This document shows, piece by piece, positions 3,830 through 18,194 of a DNA stretch of 43,851 nt. A program made the position numbers and the translations under genes. The stretch lies in the NCBI GenBank assembly GCA_028711995.1, contig JAQTRE010000012.1:1-43851 (forward strand), given 5' to 3'. The notes beneath the pieces were generated by a model. That model saw nothing but the letters and a program-made list of their open reading frames with translations. It was not told where the DNA came from and did not search any database. Every line of letters starts with the position of its first letter. Positions within the stretch are counted from its first letter, which is position 1. The stretch comes from Dehalococcoidia bacterium. GTDB lineage: Bacteria; Chloroflexota; Dehalococcoidia; SZUA-161; SpSt-899.

Positions 3830-5209
3830 CTATCCTGTGCCTTTGGACGGTATCGACGTGCTGGCACGACTCGGCAAGAGAAAGATAAGCGGAATACTGG
3901 CAAAACAAACTACAGCCAACCCCGTGAAGACGACGCTGAAGCCGTGCGTCAAATCATTACTCCGATTCAGAATCAGCGATGCAACCACGATCCCAACCGA
4001 GGCACCGGCATTCAAAAACATGCTCCTTATCCCGGTAACCGTCGCAGCCTGCTGGGGTGCCAGATCAACACAGATATTGTTGATCGCTGTGACAATGGCT
4101 CCCATTCCCAATCCAGAGAGCGCCATGAAAATGAGCAGGAAGTCGGTGCCACCCAGATGAAACCCAAGGATATCCATGCTACGCGGTTCAATAGCCAGAA
4201 AGACAATGCTGAGCCCCATTACAACTGTGCCCAGCAGCATGGGCCAACGATACCCTAGCCTTAGCACATACATGCTGGTTACCGTGGAGATAAGCAGCAT
4301 ACCCAACGAGCGTGGTGTCATGATTACACCGCTCTTGAGCGTTGTCTCATGATATACAGCAACCGCGTATGTGGGAGCAAAGGCGGAAACTGCATAGGTG
4401 GAGGCACCGAACACGAAATTATAAACATTAGAGGCGGCAAAGGATCGGCCTCTGAGAAATTCGATATTGACAATGGGATTCGAGACACGGCTCTCTCTCC
4501 TCACAAAGATCGCAATGATCGCCACGCCCACAATAAACAGTACGCTCACCCATATCCAGGGGGTGTCGTTTTGCCGGATCAGGCTCAAGCCGACCATTAT
4601 CGCACTCAGGAAGGCCGTCAACATGCCGGCACCCGCCAGGTCCAGATGACTTTCCTTCCTTTTGCCGGGCTTCAAAAGCAGCGCTGCAATTACGCAGGCA
4701 GCGGCCAGCACCGGCAGATTGACCCAGAATACCGATCTCCAGCCCCAGGCGGGTGTGATCCATCCGCCGATGTTTGGCCCGGCGAGCGTCCCAAACGGGA
4801 CGATGCTGATCAGGAGCCCAATTGCACGCTGACGAGAGTCAGCAAATTCTCCGGCTACGATGGCGACACCGCAAGAAGTCAGGGCTCCGGCTCCAAGACC
4901 CTGGATCAAGCGGAAAATGATAAGGCTTTCCACATTGGGCGCCAACAGGCAGAGTAGCGTGCCGAGGGTGAAAATGAGCAAGGAGGACATGAACACGGGC
5001 TTTTGGCCGAACGCGTCGCTCAGTCTGCCTCCCAGCGCCACACTGATGGTAAGCGTCAGCATATAACCGCTCACCACCCAGCCGATTAGGATAAGGGAGG
5101 AATGAAAGTCGGACCGCATTGTCGGCAGCGCCACCGACACGGCACTGGCACCGAAAGTGGTGAGGAACATAACCATCCCTACAGTGCCGAAAATAATATA
5201 TCTTCGCAT
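3830..5209 (-). CDS. MFS transporter, DHA2 (EmrB/QacA) type
   Basis: The 459-aa protein is hydrophobic throughout, with many predicted membrane helices. The cytoplasmic loop GGRLSDAFGQKPVF between helices 2 and 3 is the MFS motif A (GxLaDrxGrkxxl). RLIQGLGAGAL is motif B-like, and GPNIGGWITPAWGWRSVFWVN is motif C of drug:H+ antiporters. The start at 5209 (MRRYIIF) is the first ATG; an upstream TTG frame exists with a poor start context. It is the last gene in the minus-strand run that begins with the MarR regulator, 110 bp after the GRE activase gene. It may import the substrate or export a product of the GRE pathway, or efflux a toxic compound. The direction is not visible in the sequence. 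Confidence 0.9.
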   Translation of the reverse strand: MRRYIIFGTVGMVMFLTTFGASAVSVALPTMRSDFHSSLILIGWVVSGYMLTLTISVALGGRLSDAFGQKPVFMSSLLIFTLGTLLCLLAPNVESLIIFRLIQGLGAGALTSCGVAIVAGEFADSRQRAIGLLISIVPFGTLAGPNIGGWITPAWGWRSVFWVNLPVLAAACVIAALLLKPGKRKESHLDLAGAGMLTAFLSAIMVGLSLIRQNDTPWIWVSVLFIVGVAIIAIFVRRESRVSNPIVNIEFLRGRSFAASNVYNFVFGASTYAVSAFAPTYAVAVYHETTLKSGVIMTPRSLGMLLISTVTSMYVLRLGYRWPMLLGTVVMGLSIVFLAIEPRSMDILGFHLGGTDFLLIFMALSGLGMGAIVTAINNICVDLAPQQAATVTGIRSMFLNAGASVGIVVASLILNRSNDLTHGFSVVFTGLAVVCFASIPLIFLLPSRASTSIPSKGTG

Positions 5210-5319
5210 ATTGCAGGCCAATCCCCTTTATTGATTGGCGATGGGGGAATAGATGGGGTCCAATGCTCCGATTCCAGTCAACAATCGACTATGCCGATCG
5301 AATCTTGCCAGAGTCTTCT

Positions 5320-6463: not shown

Positions 6464-7774
6464 TCAAGCGGGCTTGAAGCGCTTTTGAACGTCCTCAGCC
6501 ACCATTCGGCCGCTCTTGATTGCCGCTAGAGAACACCACCAGCCCTCAGGGGCGGACCGATCACCCACAGCGTATAACCCGTGGATTGGCGTCTTGATGG
6601 ACACATTGCCTCGTCCGGGGATGTTTCCGGTAACGCCCCAGTCTCTCTGGGCGACCCTGACCTTTATCAGCGTGGCGTATTTTTCCACCTCAGGCATGTT
6701 GTGCCGCAGATCCTCCAGGGACAGTGCTATCTCCCTGCGGATATCATAAGGGGGATAGACAGACTTTGGCACGCAGGCAGCTTCAAGAAGATGTTTGCCT
6801 TTGGGAGACATCTCCGGGCAGAGCGGGGTGAAATCGAGGATCATAAAGGCTCTCTTAAATTCGGTAAAGCAATAGCAGGACGATCCCTCCAGCGAGGGCA
6901 ACAGCCTATCGGTCATGAATTCAAAACAGATCATCGGCGAGCCGATGATGTTGTTCACGTCTTTCATGTAGCCGGGACTGAAATACTCCTTCCCTGCCAA
7001 TTCCACAGTTTTGCGCGGCGGGGCGTTGCTGATGACCGTCTGGGCTACGATCTCCACCTGCTCGCCATCTTTCTGAACCACTACTCCGGTGGCCTTGCCA
7101 TTTTTGACCTTTATCTGCGTTGCCGGACACCTGGTCCACACATCTCCCCCCAATCTCTTGATGGCGGCCACCATGGCATTGGTGAAATCACCGCATCCCC
7201 CGGGGGGATAGGCCCAAGTCATGTGCGCGCCCTGGGTAATATGGCGGAAGAACTCACCGGCCGGTATCTCATAGCTGTTAACGCCAATGCCGCAGGTGAG
7301 AAAATGGAACAGCTTCAAAATAATGGGGTTATTGGTATACTGCCGGCCCCATTCATCCATAGACATGGAGTAGGAGGGTTCAGTCCAGGTGATAGCTTGC
7401 ATCCATGCGTTGTATACCCTTTGAGCCTCCTCATCGCTGGTGGCAGCCTCGCCGATCAGGGTCTTCCACATCGTCTTGGGCGGAGCAATGATGTCTTTGC
7501 CTTTCATGCGGAACTTGAATACCGGATCAGGGATGCGAAGTTCCAGCTCGGCGCCGACCTCCTTACACAGTTCACCGTGGATCTCAGGGCCGATCATGGC
7601 GGCGCCAGTGTTGAGCTTGAAGCCATGATGGTCAAGCGTCTGGCATCGCCCACCGACAAACGGCAACTTCTCGACGATCTGAACGCTATAACCCTTCTTC
7701 AGCAAAAGGGCGGCGGAAGTGGTAGCTCCGATTCCGCTCCCGATGATGGCCACATCACATTTGATCTGTTTCAT
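6464..7774 (-). CDS. FAD-dependent oxidoreductase of the phytoene dehydrogenase/desaturase type
   Basis: The 436-aa protein starts MKQIKCDVAIIG and has the FAD dinucleotide fold GSGIGATTSAALLLKKG, ending in the acidic residue of VEKLPFVGGRCQT, the hallmark of phytoene desaturase-like and amine oxidase-like flavoproteins. The C-terminal FAD motif is GLYAVGDRSAPEGWWCSLAA. A substrate-binding middle domain (about residues 90-310) diverges from carotenoid enzymes, and no carotenoid genes are nearby. The ATG is preceded by GGGAGGTG and shares one base with the ferredoxin stop (TAATG), so the two are almost certainly made together. It probably oxidises or desaturates a pathway intermediate and passes electrons to that ferredoxin. 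The substrate is unknown. Confidence 0.88.
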   Translation of the reverse strand: MKQIKCDVAIIGSGIGATTSAALLLKKGYSVQIVEKLPFVGGRCQTLDHHGFKLNTGAAMIGPEIHGELCKEVGAELELRIPDPVFKFRMKGKDIIAPPKTMWKTLIGEAATSDEEAQRVYNAWMQAITWTEPSYSMSMDEWGRQYTNNPIILKLFHFLTCGIGVNSYEIPAGEFFRHITQGAHMTWAYPPGGCGDFTNAMVAAIKRLGGDVWTRCPATQIKVKNGKATGVVVQKDGEQVEIVAQTVISNAPPRKTVELAGKEYFSPGYMKDVNNIIGSPMICFEFMTDRLLPSLEGSSCYCFTEFKRAFMILDFTPLCPEMSPKGKHLLEAACVPKSVYPPYDIRREIALSLEDLRHNMPEVEKYATLIKVRVAQRDWGVTGNIPGRGNVSIKTPIHGLYAVGDRSAPEGWWCSLAAIKSGRMVAEDVQKRFKPA

Positions 7775-7944
7775 TACTTCACCTCCCGGATGGCATCCAT
7801 CGGGCAGGTGCCCACACACTCAAGACACTCCGTACAAGTATCCCTGTTTATCTCGATCACTCCATACCCTTCCAGTGCATCGACGGGGCAAAATGCAGAG
7901 CAGATATTGCAACCGATACACTCCTCCTGATCAACTACGACCAT
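7774..7944 (-). CDS. Small 2[4Fe-4S] ferredoxin, 56 aa
   Basis: This short gene encodes 56 residues starting MVVVDQEECIGCNICSAFCP. Two CxxCxxCxxxCP motifs are complete: C9, C12, C15, C19 and C37, C40, C43, C47. The spacing and length match clostridial-type low-potential ferredoxins. AAGGAGG lies just upstream of its ATG at 7944. Its stop overlaps the start of the FAD oxidoreductase by one base, so it is the likely electron partner of that flavoprotein. It might also feed the GRE activase, which needs a one-electron donor. Confidence 0.92.
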   Translation of the reverse strand: MVVVDQEECIGCNICSAFCPVDALEGYGVIEINRDTCTECLECVGTCPMDAIREVK

Positions 7945-8222: not shown

Positions 8223-9431
8223 TTAGATTACCTCTTCTTCTTTCAACTTGATGATTTCATCCCAGTCCATTCCAAGAATTTCGTTCAGAATCATTTCGGT
8301 ATGTTCCCCATACTCGGGTGCCGGCAACCGGATCGAGGGCACATCATCCCCGAAACGAAGGGGCGTAACCGTCATGCGGGTCTTTCCGAATCTTGGATCC
8401 TCGTATTCCCCGATATAGTCATTGGCCCACACTTGCGGGTCTTCCATCAAATCGAAGAAACTATTCACCGGAGCGACAACGATGTCTTCTTTGCCCATCA
8501 TTTCCAGCCATTCCGCCCGGGGCCTAGTAGCAAATGCCTCGTCCAAAATTTCAATGCATTCGGCGGAATGCAGTTTCCTCACAAAGATGTCTTCAAATCG
8601 CGGATCCTTCTCAATATGCTGCAAGCCTAGAATCTCGCACATGGGATGCCAGTATCGATCTGCCTGAAGCATGCCCAGCGTAAGCCATTTGTCATCCTTG
8701 CATCTATATTCGTTCCAGAATGGATTGGGTGTATTTGTCCTAGCATGCCTCGGAACTTCTTTGTTAATCAAAGTTACGTGATCGACATTCATCCCCAGCA
8801 AATGAATCATACTGCCAAGCAGTGAAGCCTCAACTTCCTGACCCTTCCCCGTTCTCTCCCTCTTCAGGATGGCGAGAACTATACCCAAAGCAGTCATGGT
8901 AGCTCCCATGTGATCGGCAATGGCACCGTTCAAGTAGGCGGGTGGAGTGCCTGGCGCTCCCATAATACTCATGATCCCGGATCTGGCCATGACCAGTCGA
9001 TCATATGAGGGCGCGTCTGGGCTTGGACCCTTTGAGCCCCAAGCCGTGCTTACCGCGTATATCAGGCGAGGATTGTGTCGAGACAGGGTGTCATAATCAA
9101 TCCCCAATTTTTTGGTTGCTTTCTTGCGCACGTTGTGCACAATTACATCTGATTTTTCCACCAGCTTCCAAAGAACCTCCCGACCCTTCGCCTTTGTCAG
9201 GTCCAGACTCAGGTCCTTTTTGTTGAAGTTGGCGTGCTCCATCGGCGGAAGACGCTGTACCTCCCCCATTTCAAACCTAACCTGGGTCATCGCGCCCCTC
9301 ATCGGCTCACCGGTACCCCGGGGCTCTATTTTTATCACCTCAGCCCCAAGGTCTCCCAGCATCCTCGGCGCTACACTCTGAAACCAGGACGTCAAATCCA
9401 GAACCCGATATCCTTCAAGCGGCAATGTCAT
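8223..9431 (-). CDS. Type III (CaiB/BaiF, formyl-CoA transferase family) CoA-transferase
   Basis: The 402-aa length is typical of the family. The start GYRVLDLTSWFQSVAPRMLGDLGAEVIKIE is a clear CaiB/BaiF N-terminus. The catalytic Asp that forms the acyl-aspartyl anhydride is Asp173 in GAIADHMGA. The C-terminal half (APVNSFFDLMEDPQV, then YEDPRFGKTR) is also conserved. Family members move CoA between a thioester and a free carboxylate, as in benzylsuccinate, carnitine or bile-acid metabolism. GGAGGG precedes the ATG. The gene lies 215 bp downstream of the GRE and the two are read in the same direction, so it likely activates the GRE substrate or product. The acceptor acid is not known. Confidence 0.92.
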   Translation of the reverse strand: MTLPLEGYRVLDLTSWFQSVAPRMLGDLGAEVIKIEPRGTGEPMRGAMTQVRFEMGEVQRLPPMEHANFNKKDLSLDLTKAKGREVLWKLVEKSDVIVHNVRKKATKKLGIDYDTLSRHNPRLIYAVSTAWGSKGPSPDAPSYDRLVMARSGIMSIMGAPGTPPAYLNGAIADHMGATMTALGIVLAILKRERTGKGQEVEASLLGSMIHLLGMNVDHVTLINKEVPRHARTNTPNPFWNEYRCKDDKWLTLGMLQADRYWHPMCEILGLQHIEKDPRFEDIFVRKLHSAECIEILDEAFATRPRAEWLEMMGKEDIVVAPVNSFFDLMEDPQVWANDYIGEYEDPRFGKTRMTVTPLRFGDDVPSIRLPAPEYGEHTEMILNEILGMDWDEIIKLKEEEVI

Positions 9432-9646: not shown

Positions 9647-12040
9647 TCAAACCCTCAGTTCGGTTCGGGAGATGATCTCTTCCTGAATCAATGGGTCAAG
9701 TTGTACAAAGAACGCGCTATATCCGGCCACCCTGACCACCAGATTCTTGAATTCTTCAGGATGCTGCTGAGCATCACGCAAGGTCTTGGCGTCTACGATG
9801 TTGAACTGAACGTGATAGCCGCCCAAGTCCATCAGAGTCTTGACCAACAGCATCAGTTTTCTCATCCCCTCTCGATCCGCCACCGCTGTGGGATGGAATT
9901 TCATATTGAGCAAATCCCCATCGTACTTCATCCGGTCTAACACCTTGGAAGCCGACTTGATGAGGGCAGTTGGCCCATGCTTATCGGTGCCGGGATAAGC
10001 GGAGGTGATGCCGTCGGCGAAAGGCTGCAGCGATTTTCTACCGTTGGCGGAGGCTGCGGTGTAGTACCCAAAGAGCCGGTGGAGTGACACGCTGACCGCT
10101 TCTGGCCGGCCATCGTCGGTGTTGGTATGAGTCTTAAGTACCATAGTGGCATCATAGAACAGGTCAAACCACTGCTTGACGATGCTATCCACATAATCAT
10201 CGTCATTGCCATATTTGGGAGCATCCTGCAACATCTTGCGGACATCCTCATGTCCTATGAAATCGGCCTTCAAGGCGTCCATCACTTGTTTCAGGGTGAG
10301 TTTCTTGTCTTCATACACCAGCTTCTTTATCGCCGCCAGGGAATTGCCCAGATCGACGGTGCCCACCGGCAGGGTGAGGTCTCCAGAATATCTGGCGCCG
10401 CCTTCCATCAGGTTCTTTCCTCGCTCAATGCAGTCGTTAACAACCGCAGACTGGAAGGGACAAGGTAGATACTGCGAATTGAGGGTCAGGGAGGCGATAT
10501 CGATCTCGCGCCCCAGTTTCACCAGATATTGCAGATGTTGCCACACAGCATCATGCAATTGCTCATAGGTCTCGAATTTCTCCGGATCCCCGGTTTTGAG
10601 ACTATGCTGGACTCCGGTCAATATATTCACGCCATTATTAAGCGCCAGCTCCAGCATCTTGGGTAAGCACACCAGCGTCTCCCAGGTACCGTTGTTCTTG
10701 CCAGCGGGCAGGGCCTGGGTGCAGGCGACCATGGTAAAATCGCGAGCCTCTTCTATGGAACACCGGTAGCGTTCCAGATTGCGCTGGACAGCCAGATCAG
10801 AGTTAACAAAGGCCGGCTTGCCGATGCCAAGTCGGATGTTCTCGGCGCACTTGGTCAACAGCTCCTCGGGAAGCCTGTTATGCCAGATGCAGACCAGGCT
10901 GGGCTGGATCATCCGGACCTGGCCGTCTGCCTCCAGGATGAGGTAGTCCAATTCACAGGTGGCGTCGGTTCCATCCAGTTTGACCCCGCCGATGCTGATG
11001 TTTTGCCCCAGATGATTGGGGGCAGCCAGAGCGGCATTGGCGCCGGGCTGGTGCAGAGCAAGCTCCGACATCTTAATGAAGAGGAGTTCCAGCAGTTCGA
11101 CGGCTTGCTCGTCGGTGATATCGCCGCGCTCCTTATCCTGAACGAAGAAGCGGTTCATGTACTGTCCGATTCTGCCGGGTGAAATGGCTACCTGGGCCGC
11201 TTCAGCCCAGATGCCGCAATGAGTAAACCAAAAGGCCTGAACTGCATCGCGAAAATTGCGGGCCGGTTTGGCCGGCACCCAACGGCATCTCTCGGCAATC
11301 TCAAGGAGTTCCTTCTTTCGGGCCTGATCGGTCTCGCTCTGAGCCATCTGCTCGGTCAAATCGGCATAGCGGTTAGCAAAGGCAATGACCGCCTCGCAAC
11401 TCATAATAGCCGCCTTGAGAAACTCAAGCCTGTGAATCTCATCCACGTAGGCCGCCGGTACCTCGGCAATCTTTCGACGGGCATGGGCAATAATCCCCTC
11501 CAGTCCTTCGTTGATCACCTTGGCGTAGTCAACATTGAGATAGCCGATGGGGCCGAATGAGCTATCCAGCATGGAGCATTCTTTCATGATCTCGGGACGG
11601 GTGAGTCCCGGGTGCGTATCGGCGAAAACCTCGTTGACCATATCCACCATGCACCGGCCCTTGAAATACTCCCGAGCTTCGCGTATGTGCTTCCAATCCT
11701 CTTCCGACAAACCTTCATGCACGCTTCCGAACTGGCTGTTGTGCGCTTTCTTGGTCCACCAGTTGCTGGACCATTCCGGATAAGGGATGACGCCCCGGCG
11801 AAACTCACTGGGATTACCTACAATGGGATTTTCATCGATGTGGAGAGTCATTCCCTTGAGGTATTTCTCCAGAACCCGGGCGCGGATGAGCACAGGCGCT
11901 CTGCCCTCATTCTCTCGATAACCCTCCACGACAAATTTCAGGCGCTCCGTGGACATCTTGATAGGCGCTTCATGGAAGCTCTCCTTGAGTCTGCTGACGC
12001 GCTCGCTTAATATTGCCTTTTCTTCAAGTTGGAATGTCAT
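9647..12040 (-). CDS. Glycyl radical enzyme (pyruvate formate-lyase family), function unassigned
   Basis: The 797-aa length fits large GREs. The C-terminal glycyl radical motif is intact: VVRVAGYSAFF, with radical Gly773. The active-site loop before the conserved KMLELALNNG helix reads MVACTQALPAGKNN, which puts the thiyl residue at Cys440. In diol dehydratase, choline lyase, hydroxyproline dehydratase, isethionate lyase and 4-hydroxyphenylacetate decarboxylase this loop is Cys-x-Glu, but here it is Cys-Thr-Gln. It is also not the Cys-Cys of pyruvate formate-lyase. Neither the BssB/BssC nor HpdC type small FeS subunit is encoded nearby. AAGGAGGAG precedes the ATG. The activase, ferredoxin, flavoprotein and CoA-transferase genes follow on the same strand. 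GRE identity is certain; the reaction is open. Confidence 0.95.
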   Translation of the reverse strand: MTFQLEEKAILSERVSRLKESFHEAPIKMSTERLKFVVEGYRENEGRAPVLIRARVLEKYLKGMTLHIDENPIVGNPSEFRRGVIPYPEWSSNWWTKKAHNSQFGSVHEGLSEEDWKHIREAREYFKGRCMVDMVNEVFADTHPGLTRPEIMKECSMLDSSFGPIGYLNVDYAKVINEGLEGIIAHARRKIAEVPAAYVDEIHRLEFLKAAIMSCEAVIAFANRYADLTEQMAQSETDQARKKELLEIAERCRWVPAKPARNFRDAVQAFWFTHCGIWAEAAQVAISPGRIGQYMNRFFVQDKERGDITDEQAVELLELLFIKMSELALHQPGANAALAAPNHLGQNISIGGVKLDGTDATCELDYLILEADGQVRMIQPSLVCIWHNRLPEELLTKCAENIRLGIGKPAFVNSDLAVQRNLERYRCSIEEARDFTMVACTQALPAGKNNGTWETLVCLPKMLELALNNGVNILTGVQHSLKTGDPEKFETYEQLHDAVWQHLQYLVKLGREIDIASLTLNSQYLPCPFQSAVVNDCIERGKNLMEGGARYSGDLTLPVGTVDLGNSLAAIKKLVYEDKKLTLKQVMDALKADFIGHEDVRKMLQDAPKYGNDDDYVDSIVKQWFDLFYDATMVLKTHTNTDDGRPEAVSVSLHRLFGYYTAASANGRKSLQPFADGITSAYPGTDKHGPTALIKSASKVLDRMKYDGDLLNMKFHPTAVADREGMRKLMLLVKTLMDLGGYHVQFNIVDAKTLRDAQQHPEEFKNLVVRVAGYSAFFVQLDPLIQEEIISRTELRV

Positions 12041-12141: not shown

Positions 12142-12615
12142 TCATATCAGGACAGGATTCCGAACGCCTAAAAGTCGTTCCAAGTACATATCTCGGAGCA
12201 GTTTCATGTAACGCCGGATTTCTCGGAGTTCATCTTCCGAAAAGCGCTGCCCCATCTCGCCCATAATATCTTTCACCACGGGCCACGCCTCCTCCATCAC
12301 CTTCTCGCCTTTGGCCGTCAGGCGATAAATGTAATGCTTACATCCCTCCGGCTTCTCCCTGAAGATGAGTCCCGCCTTTTCTGCCCGGCTCAACAAACCG
12401 GCCGCGCTATGTTTCTCTCTAGCAAGCCAACGTGCAAGCTCACCGAGCGTCACTCCTCCGGGTTGTCTGCTAATCATAATAAGAACCTCGAACTGCTCAA
12501 TAGTGCATTGGTAGCGTGCCAGAGAAGCTGATACCGCCTTATACATCGATTCGCGCGCTTGCCGGACAAGCCACCATGTGTTTAGAATTGAGTCGTCGAA
12601 TTCATAAGAATCCAT
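12142..12615 (-). CDS. MarR-family transcriptional regulator
   Basis: This 157-aa protein has the winged-helix layout of MarR. The N-terminal dimer helix is followed by QFEVLIMISRQPGGVTLGEL, a recognition helix region (AREKHSAAGLLSRAEKAGLI), and a wing with the usual basic residues (REKPEGCKHYIYRLTAKGE). A C-terminal dimerisation helix pair ends the chain. It is the first gene of the minus-strand GRE run, 101 bp before the GRE start. MarR proteins usually repress and release DNA on binding a small aromatic or phenolic ligand, so it probably senses the GRE pathway substrate. A perfect inverted repeat lies at its own promoter. Confidence 0.93.
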   Translation of the reverse strand: MDSYEFDDSILNTWWLVRQARESMYKAVSASLARYQCTIEQFEVLIMISRQPGGVTLGELARWLAREKHSAAGLLSRAEKAGLIFREKPEGCKHYIYRLTAKGEKVMEEAWPVVKDIMGEMGQRFSEDELREIRRYMKLLRDMYLERLLGVRNPVLI

Positions 12616-17180: not shown

Positions 17181-18194
17181 ATGGCCAAGTACTTTCGCAT
17201 TCTCGCGATCGACGGAGGAGGGGTAAGGGGGATTATCCCGGCACGGATCCTCATGTCGCTGGAAACAAAGTTGAAGAAAGAGACGGGCAATCCCGATATC
17301 GCCCTTGGGGATTGTTTCGATCTCATTGCCGGAACAAGCAGCGGCGGTATTCTGACGTGCATCTATCTCTACCCTCAGCCAGATAATCCCTTACGCCCCC
17401 TCTACAACGCGGAAGAAGCGCTTCAATTCTACTTCAAAAGCAGCAACAAAATCTTCCGCAGTTCGGTGTGGCGCCGGATCAATTCCCTGGGTGGCGTCCT
17501 GGATGACAAGTATCCGGCAGACGGGCTCGAAACCGCGCTCGAGAAAGTTTTCCATGATCAAAGACTCAGCCACCTCATCAAACCATGTCTGATCACCGCC
17601 TATGATATCGGGCGTCGCGAGGCCTATTTTTTCAGGCAGCACGATGCGCGCAGGACTCCTGCCCGCGACTTTCTGCTTCGGGATGTGGGACGAGCCACTT
17701 CAGCTGCCCCAACATTTTTCGAGTGCGTCGGCATCAAGTCAGCCACTCAAGTGCACTATCCGATGATCGATGGCGGGGTGTTCGCCAATAATCCGGCAAT
17801 GTGCGCCTACGCTGAGGCCCTGGCCATGAAGGAGGCCAATACGCCAACTGCAAAAACAATGGTCATCCTTTCCCTCGGTACCGGAGACGTCAGGACTCCA
17901 TACAGGTATCATAGAGCCAAAAACTGGGGATCGATGCAATGGATCCGGCCTCTGGTGGACATCATGATGTCAGGCGTCTCCGAAACGGTCGACTACCAGC
18001 TCAGGCAGATATTCGCAGCGGTTGACGCTTCCCCTCAGTACCTGAGAATCCAGACCCAGATCCGACCGGCACACGCGGACCCTGATAATGCAGAATCTGC
18101 CAACCTGCGCACCCTCAAAGAGACCGGCCGCATACTCGCGGAAAAAAACAGTACCAAGCTGGATGCTTTCGCCAGACTGCTGTTGACGGACTGA
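17181..18194 (+). CDS. Patatin-like phospholipase
   Basis: This 337-aa protein is a single patatin domain. The oxyanion loop DGGGVRGIIPARIL is at residues 11-24, the nucleophile elbow GTSSGG puts Ser53 in the GxSxG position, and the catalytic Asp197 lies in PMIDGGVFANNP. All three are intact, so it should be an active acyl hydrolase on phospholipid or another acyl ester. No signal peptide is present, which suggests a cytosolic enzyme. It resembles the compact patatins that include CBASS effectors, but no nucleotide cyclase gene is in the window. It is followed by a toxin-antitoxin pair on the same strand, 58 bp downstream. Confidence 0.92.
   Translation: MAKYFRILAIDGGGVRGIIPARILMSLETKLKKETGNPDIALGDCFDLIAGTSSGGILTCIYLYPQPDNPLRPLYNAEEALQFYFKSSNKIFRSSVWRRINSLGGVLDDKYPADGLETALEKVFHDQRLSHLIKPCLITAYDIGRREAYFFRQHDARRTPARDFLLRDVGRATSAAPTFFECVGIKSATQVHYPMIDGGVFANNPAMCAYAEALAMKEANTPTAKTMVILSLGTGDVRTPYRYHRAKNWGSMQWIRPLVDIMMSGVSETVDYQLRQIFAAVDASPQYLRIQTQIRPAHADPDNAESANLRTLKETGRILAEKNSTKLDAFARLLLTD

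Follow-up and report, generated by a model that had tools for sequence, protein, structure and literature searches.

The window analysed here, the whole 43,851-nucleotide stretch of contig JAQTRE010000012.1, contains an operon around a glycyl radical enzyme (GRE) gene whose active-site loop has Cys-Thr-Gln (Table 1). Every NCBIfam equivalog score of the neighbouring CoA-transferase was far under the cut-off. Paralogues of the FAD oxidoreductase, together with ferredoxin, were found on contigs C79, C88, C131 and C6. The MarR-family protein is likely the regulator of the operon, and our assignment of the MFS transporter to the same operon is a guess. Elsewhere in the window (17181-18194, plus strand) lies a gene for a patatin-like phospholipase, which scored near a CBASS effector model (177 bits, cut-off 200).

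Table 1. Features of the GRE operon, in window coordinates
Feature	Position	Strand	Evidence
MFS transporter, same strand	3830..5221	-	PF07690 176 bits
GRE-activating radical SAM enzyme, 318 aa	5320..6276	-	TIGR02494 372.6 bits, cut-off 174.35
FAD oxidoreductase, distant CrtI/phytoene desaturase likeness, 436 aa	6464..7774	-	profile matches; paralogues
Small 2x[4Fe-4S] ferredoxin, 56 aa, stop codon overlapping flavoprotein gene start	7774..7944	-	sequence
Family III CoA-transferase, 402 aa, directly downstream of GRE	8223..9431	-	PF02515 330 bits, whole domain
GRE, 797 aa, C440-T441-Q442, G773	9647..12040	-	ORF translation, Pfam, alignment, model
Gly773 codon GGA in RVAGYSAFF, glycyl radical site	9722..9724	-	sequence, PF01228
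Cys440-Thr441-Gln442 codons TGC ACC CAG, Cys loop	10715..10723	-	sequence
MarR-family regulator, upstream of GRE	12142..12615	-	PF12802 31 bits

The protein belongs to the GRE superfamily: PF02901 (543 bits) and PF01228 (99 bits) both matched nearly full-length, and it has an RVxG[FWY] loop with its Gly and a mid-protein Cys loop. The GRE fold was confirmed at the level of an AlphaFold2 model (mean pLDDT 90.7, pTM 0.93), whose best PDB matches were propanediol/glycerol dehydratase (1r8w, 5i2g), HypD and CutC, with TM-scores of about 0.92-0.95 and 30-32 % identity. An earlier note on this DNA had placed Cys-Thr-Gln at 10700-10760, and indeed the three residues lie there in the right loop on the minus strand, with their codons at 10723-10715; the Cys-loop stretch of the ORF (9647-12040(-)) reads EEARDFTMVACTQALPAGKNNGTWETLVCLPKMLELALNNG. 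In the alignment with glycerol dehydratase (GD, 1r8w), C433 pairs with C440 and E435 with Q442. The superfamily alignment including X-succinate synthases, which the earlier note had proposed, likewise identified Cys440 as the catalytic Cys, put Gln442 at the C-x-E site and gave a loop other than C-M-S-P. Since C440 is invariant across 37 aligned GREs, a catalytic role for another residue in its place is ruled out.

Seven proteins with 41-79 % identity to the window GRE all share C440 and Q442. CTQ is found in three same-genome paralogues at 76-79 % identity and CVQ in three at 46-49 %, and the Gln is kept in the relatives L059 (CSQ), L011 and L061 (CVQ). The dN/dS values among the CTQ paralogues were 0.08-0.10; the window GRE gene is under strong purifying selection. 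Conservation in the paralogues and dN/dS together rule out a sequencing error or a dead gene, and the statement of the earlier note that the Gly773 motif is intact and the enzyme not simply dead stands, with both the Cys and the Gly loop intact and a dN/dS of about 0.09.

On a tree of 124 GREs, the window GRE falls into a 13-member clade (SH-aLRT 100), in which the second residue after the catalytic Cys (Cys+2) is Q in ten, E in two and S in one; two clade sisters, L010 and L064, carry C-V-E. Across this set of 124, which is a search-biased sample, Cys+2 is E in 72 and Q in 17, the others having D, R, S, G, V, T, L, H, I or Y. Changes between Q and non-Q occurred at least five times on the tree, and C-x-Q recurs in unrelated branches. 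Having arisen several times, the motif alone says little on kinship. In a sample of 250 other Chloroflexota genomes, no further member was found at E <= 1e-175, a strict threshold that misses 40-47 % relatives.

Several other loop variants were seen alongside. The cultured species Clostridium aminobutyricum has, outside the window clade, a C-V-Q GRE adjoining its own activase (L091:10001-12361), and a 5-Mb genome of the same class (G044) has 17 GRE matches, including the C-V-Q types L015 and L031. Another non-C-x-E group, with C-M-R or C-L-R at the active-site loop, occurs in GREs of order mates (L019, L024, L034, L036, L037, L038), and adjacent GRE gene pairs with C-L-D or C-I-D replacing C-x-E occur at L068, L070, L078 and L097.

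The window GRE scored 533, 495, 510 and 475 bits against the HypD, CutC, HpsG and HpfG equivalogs (cut-offs 1100, 1050, 1000 and 1000) and lacks the C-x-E of the GRE eliminases (dehydratases, CutC, IslA, HypD). Scores for HPAD and IAD (indoleacetate decarboxylase) were 442 and 521 bits, against cut-offs of 1150 and 1100 respectively, with Q442 in place of Glu. As for pyruvate formate-lyase, the window loop reads Ala439-Cys440-Thr441 with no Cys-Cys, and TIGR01255 gave 111 bits against a cut-off of 994. With AAD (7e7l) the window GRE shares the lack of Glu at Cys+2, the Cys-to-K(M)LE spacing, and G-K and W at equal loop offsets, but AAD has Leu where the window has Gln, and phmmer gave 362 bits for AAD versus 453 for dehydratases.

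Substrate-pocket positions were assigned by sequence alignment. GD residues H164, H281, S282, F333, Y339, D447 and Y640 align with Y167, V284, A285, A339, G345, W453 and V649 of the window GRE; thus aligned, His164, His281, Ser282, Asp447 and Tyr640 of the eliminase are not kept, and predicted pocket residues that are small, hydrophobic or aromatic take the place of most of the polar diol-binding set. Such a putative pocket fits a hydrophobic substrate. All ten C-x-Q clade members have W278 and W453, and beyond the 13-member clade neither Trp occurs in the set. H343 is shared by every sequence of an inner eight-member subclade and by no other sequence in the set. In this subclade the counterpart of GD His164, the partner of the Glu, is Tyr, Phe or Leu. 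A general coupling of this His with the C-x-E Glu was considered and dropped: His accompanies E in 55 of 71 cases and Q in 2 of 17, but a comparison of independent tree pairs gave no significance.

What a Gln at Cys+2 means can be judged from characterised GREs. HypD E436Q is inactive (PMC7077986), and IAD E502Q, made 'to mimic PAD', takes the glycyl radical well but forms no skatole (PMC9248008). Gln is therefore incompatible with the chemistry of the two C-x-E enzymes tested in this way, and the usual eliminase chemistry is unlikely for the window GRE. On the other hand, PMC9248008 reports Gln at Cys+2 for PhdB, the phenylacetate decarboxylase (PAD), so that, on this report, at least one active decarboxylase among the GREs carries Gln naturally. 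C-x-Q is thus unusual, yet precedented in one known toluene-making enzyme. Among other GREs, Cys+2 is Glu in HPAD and IAD (PMC6181972), Leu in AAD (C-V-L) and Ser in BssA and MasD (C-M-S).

These comparisons qualify what the earlier note had concluded. Its argument that Gln cannot serve as the base, and that the chemistry probably differs, gains from the two dead Glu-to-Gln variants; Gln alone does not exclude elimination, however, because the proposed acid/base of HypD is Asp278 and not the C-x-E Glu (PMC7077986). Gln442 does sit at the C-x-E position, aligned on the Glu of GD, but the note's list of C-x-E users goes too far for arylacetate decarboxylases as a class, given AAD and, as reported, PhdB. 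The case it had named against itself, that C-x-Q is normal in a characterised GRE group, partly applies through PhdB as reported in PMC9248008; its other case, a catalytic Cys elsewhere, does not. The feature is real, and the conclusion drawn from it was reasonable but overstated.

The host genome is a 96 % complete MAG of a subsurface Chloroflexota bacterium (class Dehalococcoidia), with 3.3 Mb spread over 240 contigs. It encodes 12 near-complete copies of these oxygen-sensitive enzymes, along with GRE fragments where contigs end. By motif the 12 are four CTQ, three CVQ, four CLQ and one CVE, i.e. 11 of 12 are C-x-Q, and the Cys and Gly loops are intact in every full-length paralogue. Only two activases in the MAG exceed the TIGR02494 cut-off: one in the window operon and the other beside the C-V-E GRE on C14. 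The window activase probably serves C-x-Q paralogues elsewhere in the genome, and one activase may serve about ten GRE paralogues, although at this completeness and contig number more activases could be missing.

Of the 11 C-x-Q GREs, 8 have a CoA-transferase III gene no more than about 3 kb away, with 39 such genes in the 3.3 Mb; the naive binomial P is about 3e-6, in which duplicated clusters are not independent. The cluster on C64 has two BadF/BcrAD ATPases as well as a pair of HGD-D proteins, of which one is near BzdO (a benzoyl-CoA reductase subunit; 394 bits, cut-off 449), the cluster on C51 has EtfA-like, HMG-CoA-lyase-like and HGD-D proteins, and L059 is flanked by an enoyl-CoA hydratase and two HGD-D proteins. 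These aryl-CoA-reductase-like and acyl-CoA genes are tools of anaerobic acid and aromatic degradation. One module (G000:C6:23915-31715) consists of ferredoxin, an FAD oxidoreductase 85 % identical to that of the window and CoA-transferases III, with no GRE on the contig; hence the ferredoxin, flavoprotein and CoA-transferase genes need not act with a GRE and may be independent. As further observations, the CoA-transferase III gene by a CLQ GRE on C64 (L043:8004-9210) is split over two frames, through an assembly slip or because it is a pseudogene, and small DUF6125-like proteins recur beside GRE genes (L046:6856-7524, with similar ORFs in L050 and L053).

Our leading interpretation, to which we give a little less than an even chance, is a functional GRE from a C-x-Q subfamily not yet characterised, which abstracts hydrogen without a base from a hydrophobic carboxylic acid within a pathway that depends on CoA. 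The activase of the window would place the radical on Gly773, and the Cys440 thiyl radical would then take an H atom from a C-H bond of the acid. Gln442 would orient the substrate, probably via its carboxylate, and would not act as proton acceptor. The substrate radical could react without a base at the Gln442 position, either by CO2 loss as proposed for PhdB or by another C-C bond change, and would then take the H back. The adjacent CoA-transferase may attach CoA to a second carboxylate or to the product acid, while the ferredoxin and flavoprotein may work as a pair that adds or removes electrons at a later step. By analogy, the nearest mechanistic precedent is the PhdB proposal, which begins with H abstraction at the alpha carbon, followed by two-electron loss of CO2. 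The presence of the CoA-transferase implies that substrate or product should still carry an acid group; as simple arylacetate decarboxylation leaves no carboxylate for this enzyme, a PhdB-like reaction would need a second one.

The same point bears on true membership in the PhdB family with an aromatic hydrocarbon as product, which we regard as improbable. PhdB, as stated in PMC9248008, has Gln at the same position, alpha-carbon H abstraction needs no base there, and the pocket suggested by the alignment is hydrophobic. However, PhdB turns phenylacetate into toluene, whereas the window operon has a CoA-transferase and a flavoprotein, the former of which would not be needed for a hydrocarbon product, and the several origins of C-x-Q weaken the motif as a sign of kinship. 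We consider it unlikely, though less so, that the window GRE is a C-O or C-N lyase with another acid/base, e.g. Tyr167, His343 or Glu454, in which Gln442 only hydrogen-bonds the leaving or hydroxyl group. The closest solved structures by sequence and fold are eliminases, which share the Gly and Cys loops; the C-V-E of the two clade sisters, the HypD precedent of Asp278 and the subclade-specific H343 also fit such an enzyme. Against it stand the loss of activity on Glu-to-Gln exchange in HypD and IAD, the replacement of the GD164 His along with most other polar contacts, and an operon in which none of the microcompartment, aldehyde or alcohol dehydrogenase genes usual around diol/choline lyases were seen.

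A fumarate-adding enzyme similar to X-succinate synthases, feeding a Bbs-like pathway of CoA-transferase and dehydrogenase, would need no base either, and the order of GRE, CoA-transferase III and flavoenzyme resembles pathways such as lss (PMC12583861). X-succinate synthases (BssA 4pkc, MasD 9o8u) likewise lack Glu at Cys+2, and in known pathways their C-C chemistry is coupled to CoA-transferase III. The X-succinate-synthase-like L025, whose loop aligned to MasD over 120 of 120 columns, has C-M-S-P and an Arg at Cys+15, which we take to be the fumarate-binding Arg of these enzymes (BssA Arg508). The window loop, in contrast, reads CTQALP with Thr455 at this position, which makes fumarate addition very unlikely; on Cys loop and missing Arg we rejected an X-succinate synthase. 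Moreover, the operon showed no small Bss/Mas subunits, and among the full-length GREs, MasD and BssA gave some of the lowest overall phmmer scores. We also discarded the fumarate-addition link that the limonene paper had suggested, as its enzyme is a BssA relative. Finally, loss of the C-x-E acid residue might indicate a catalytically dead or regulatory homologue; with the intact loops of all full-length paralogues, the low dN/dS and an activase in the operon, we find this scarcely credible.

No reaction has been assigned to much of the GRE superfamily, and a C-x-E motif is commonly read as the sign of a GRE lyase. The locus provides a clean natural test of GRE chemistry without the acid/base Glu, with close Q homologues in the window clade beside the E-bearing L010 and L064. 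What carries more weight is a lineage-restricted expansion of C-x-Q GREs that appear to share one activase and in most cases are paired with a CoA-transferase; what is new here is the presence of 12 near-complete GREs, 11 of them C-x-Q and mostly CoA-transferase-linked, against two activase genes in the MAG. Going further, and rather doubtfully, the C-x-Q GREs of this lineage within Dehalococcoidia might form a separate functional class. A single activase would serve some ten paralogues, each tuned differently, that use a base-free radical step to open hydrophobic acids of a recalcitrant kind, and every paralogue would feed its own CoA-transferase in an undescribed anaerobic pathway. If the shared-activase reading is true, it would break the usual picture of one activase per GRE and hint at radical chemistry being a main route of carbon breakdown in subsurface Chloroflexota.
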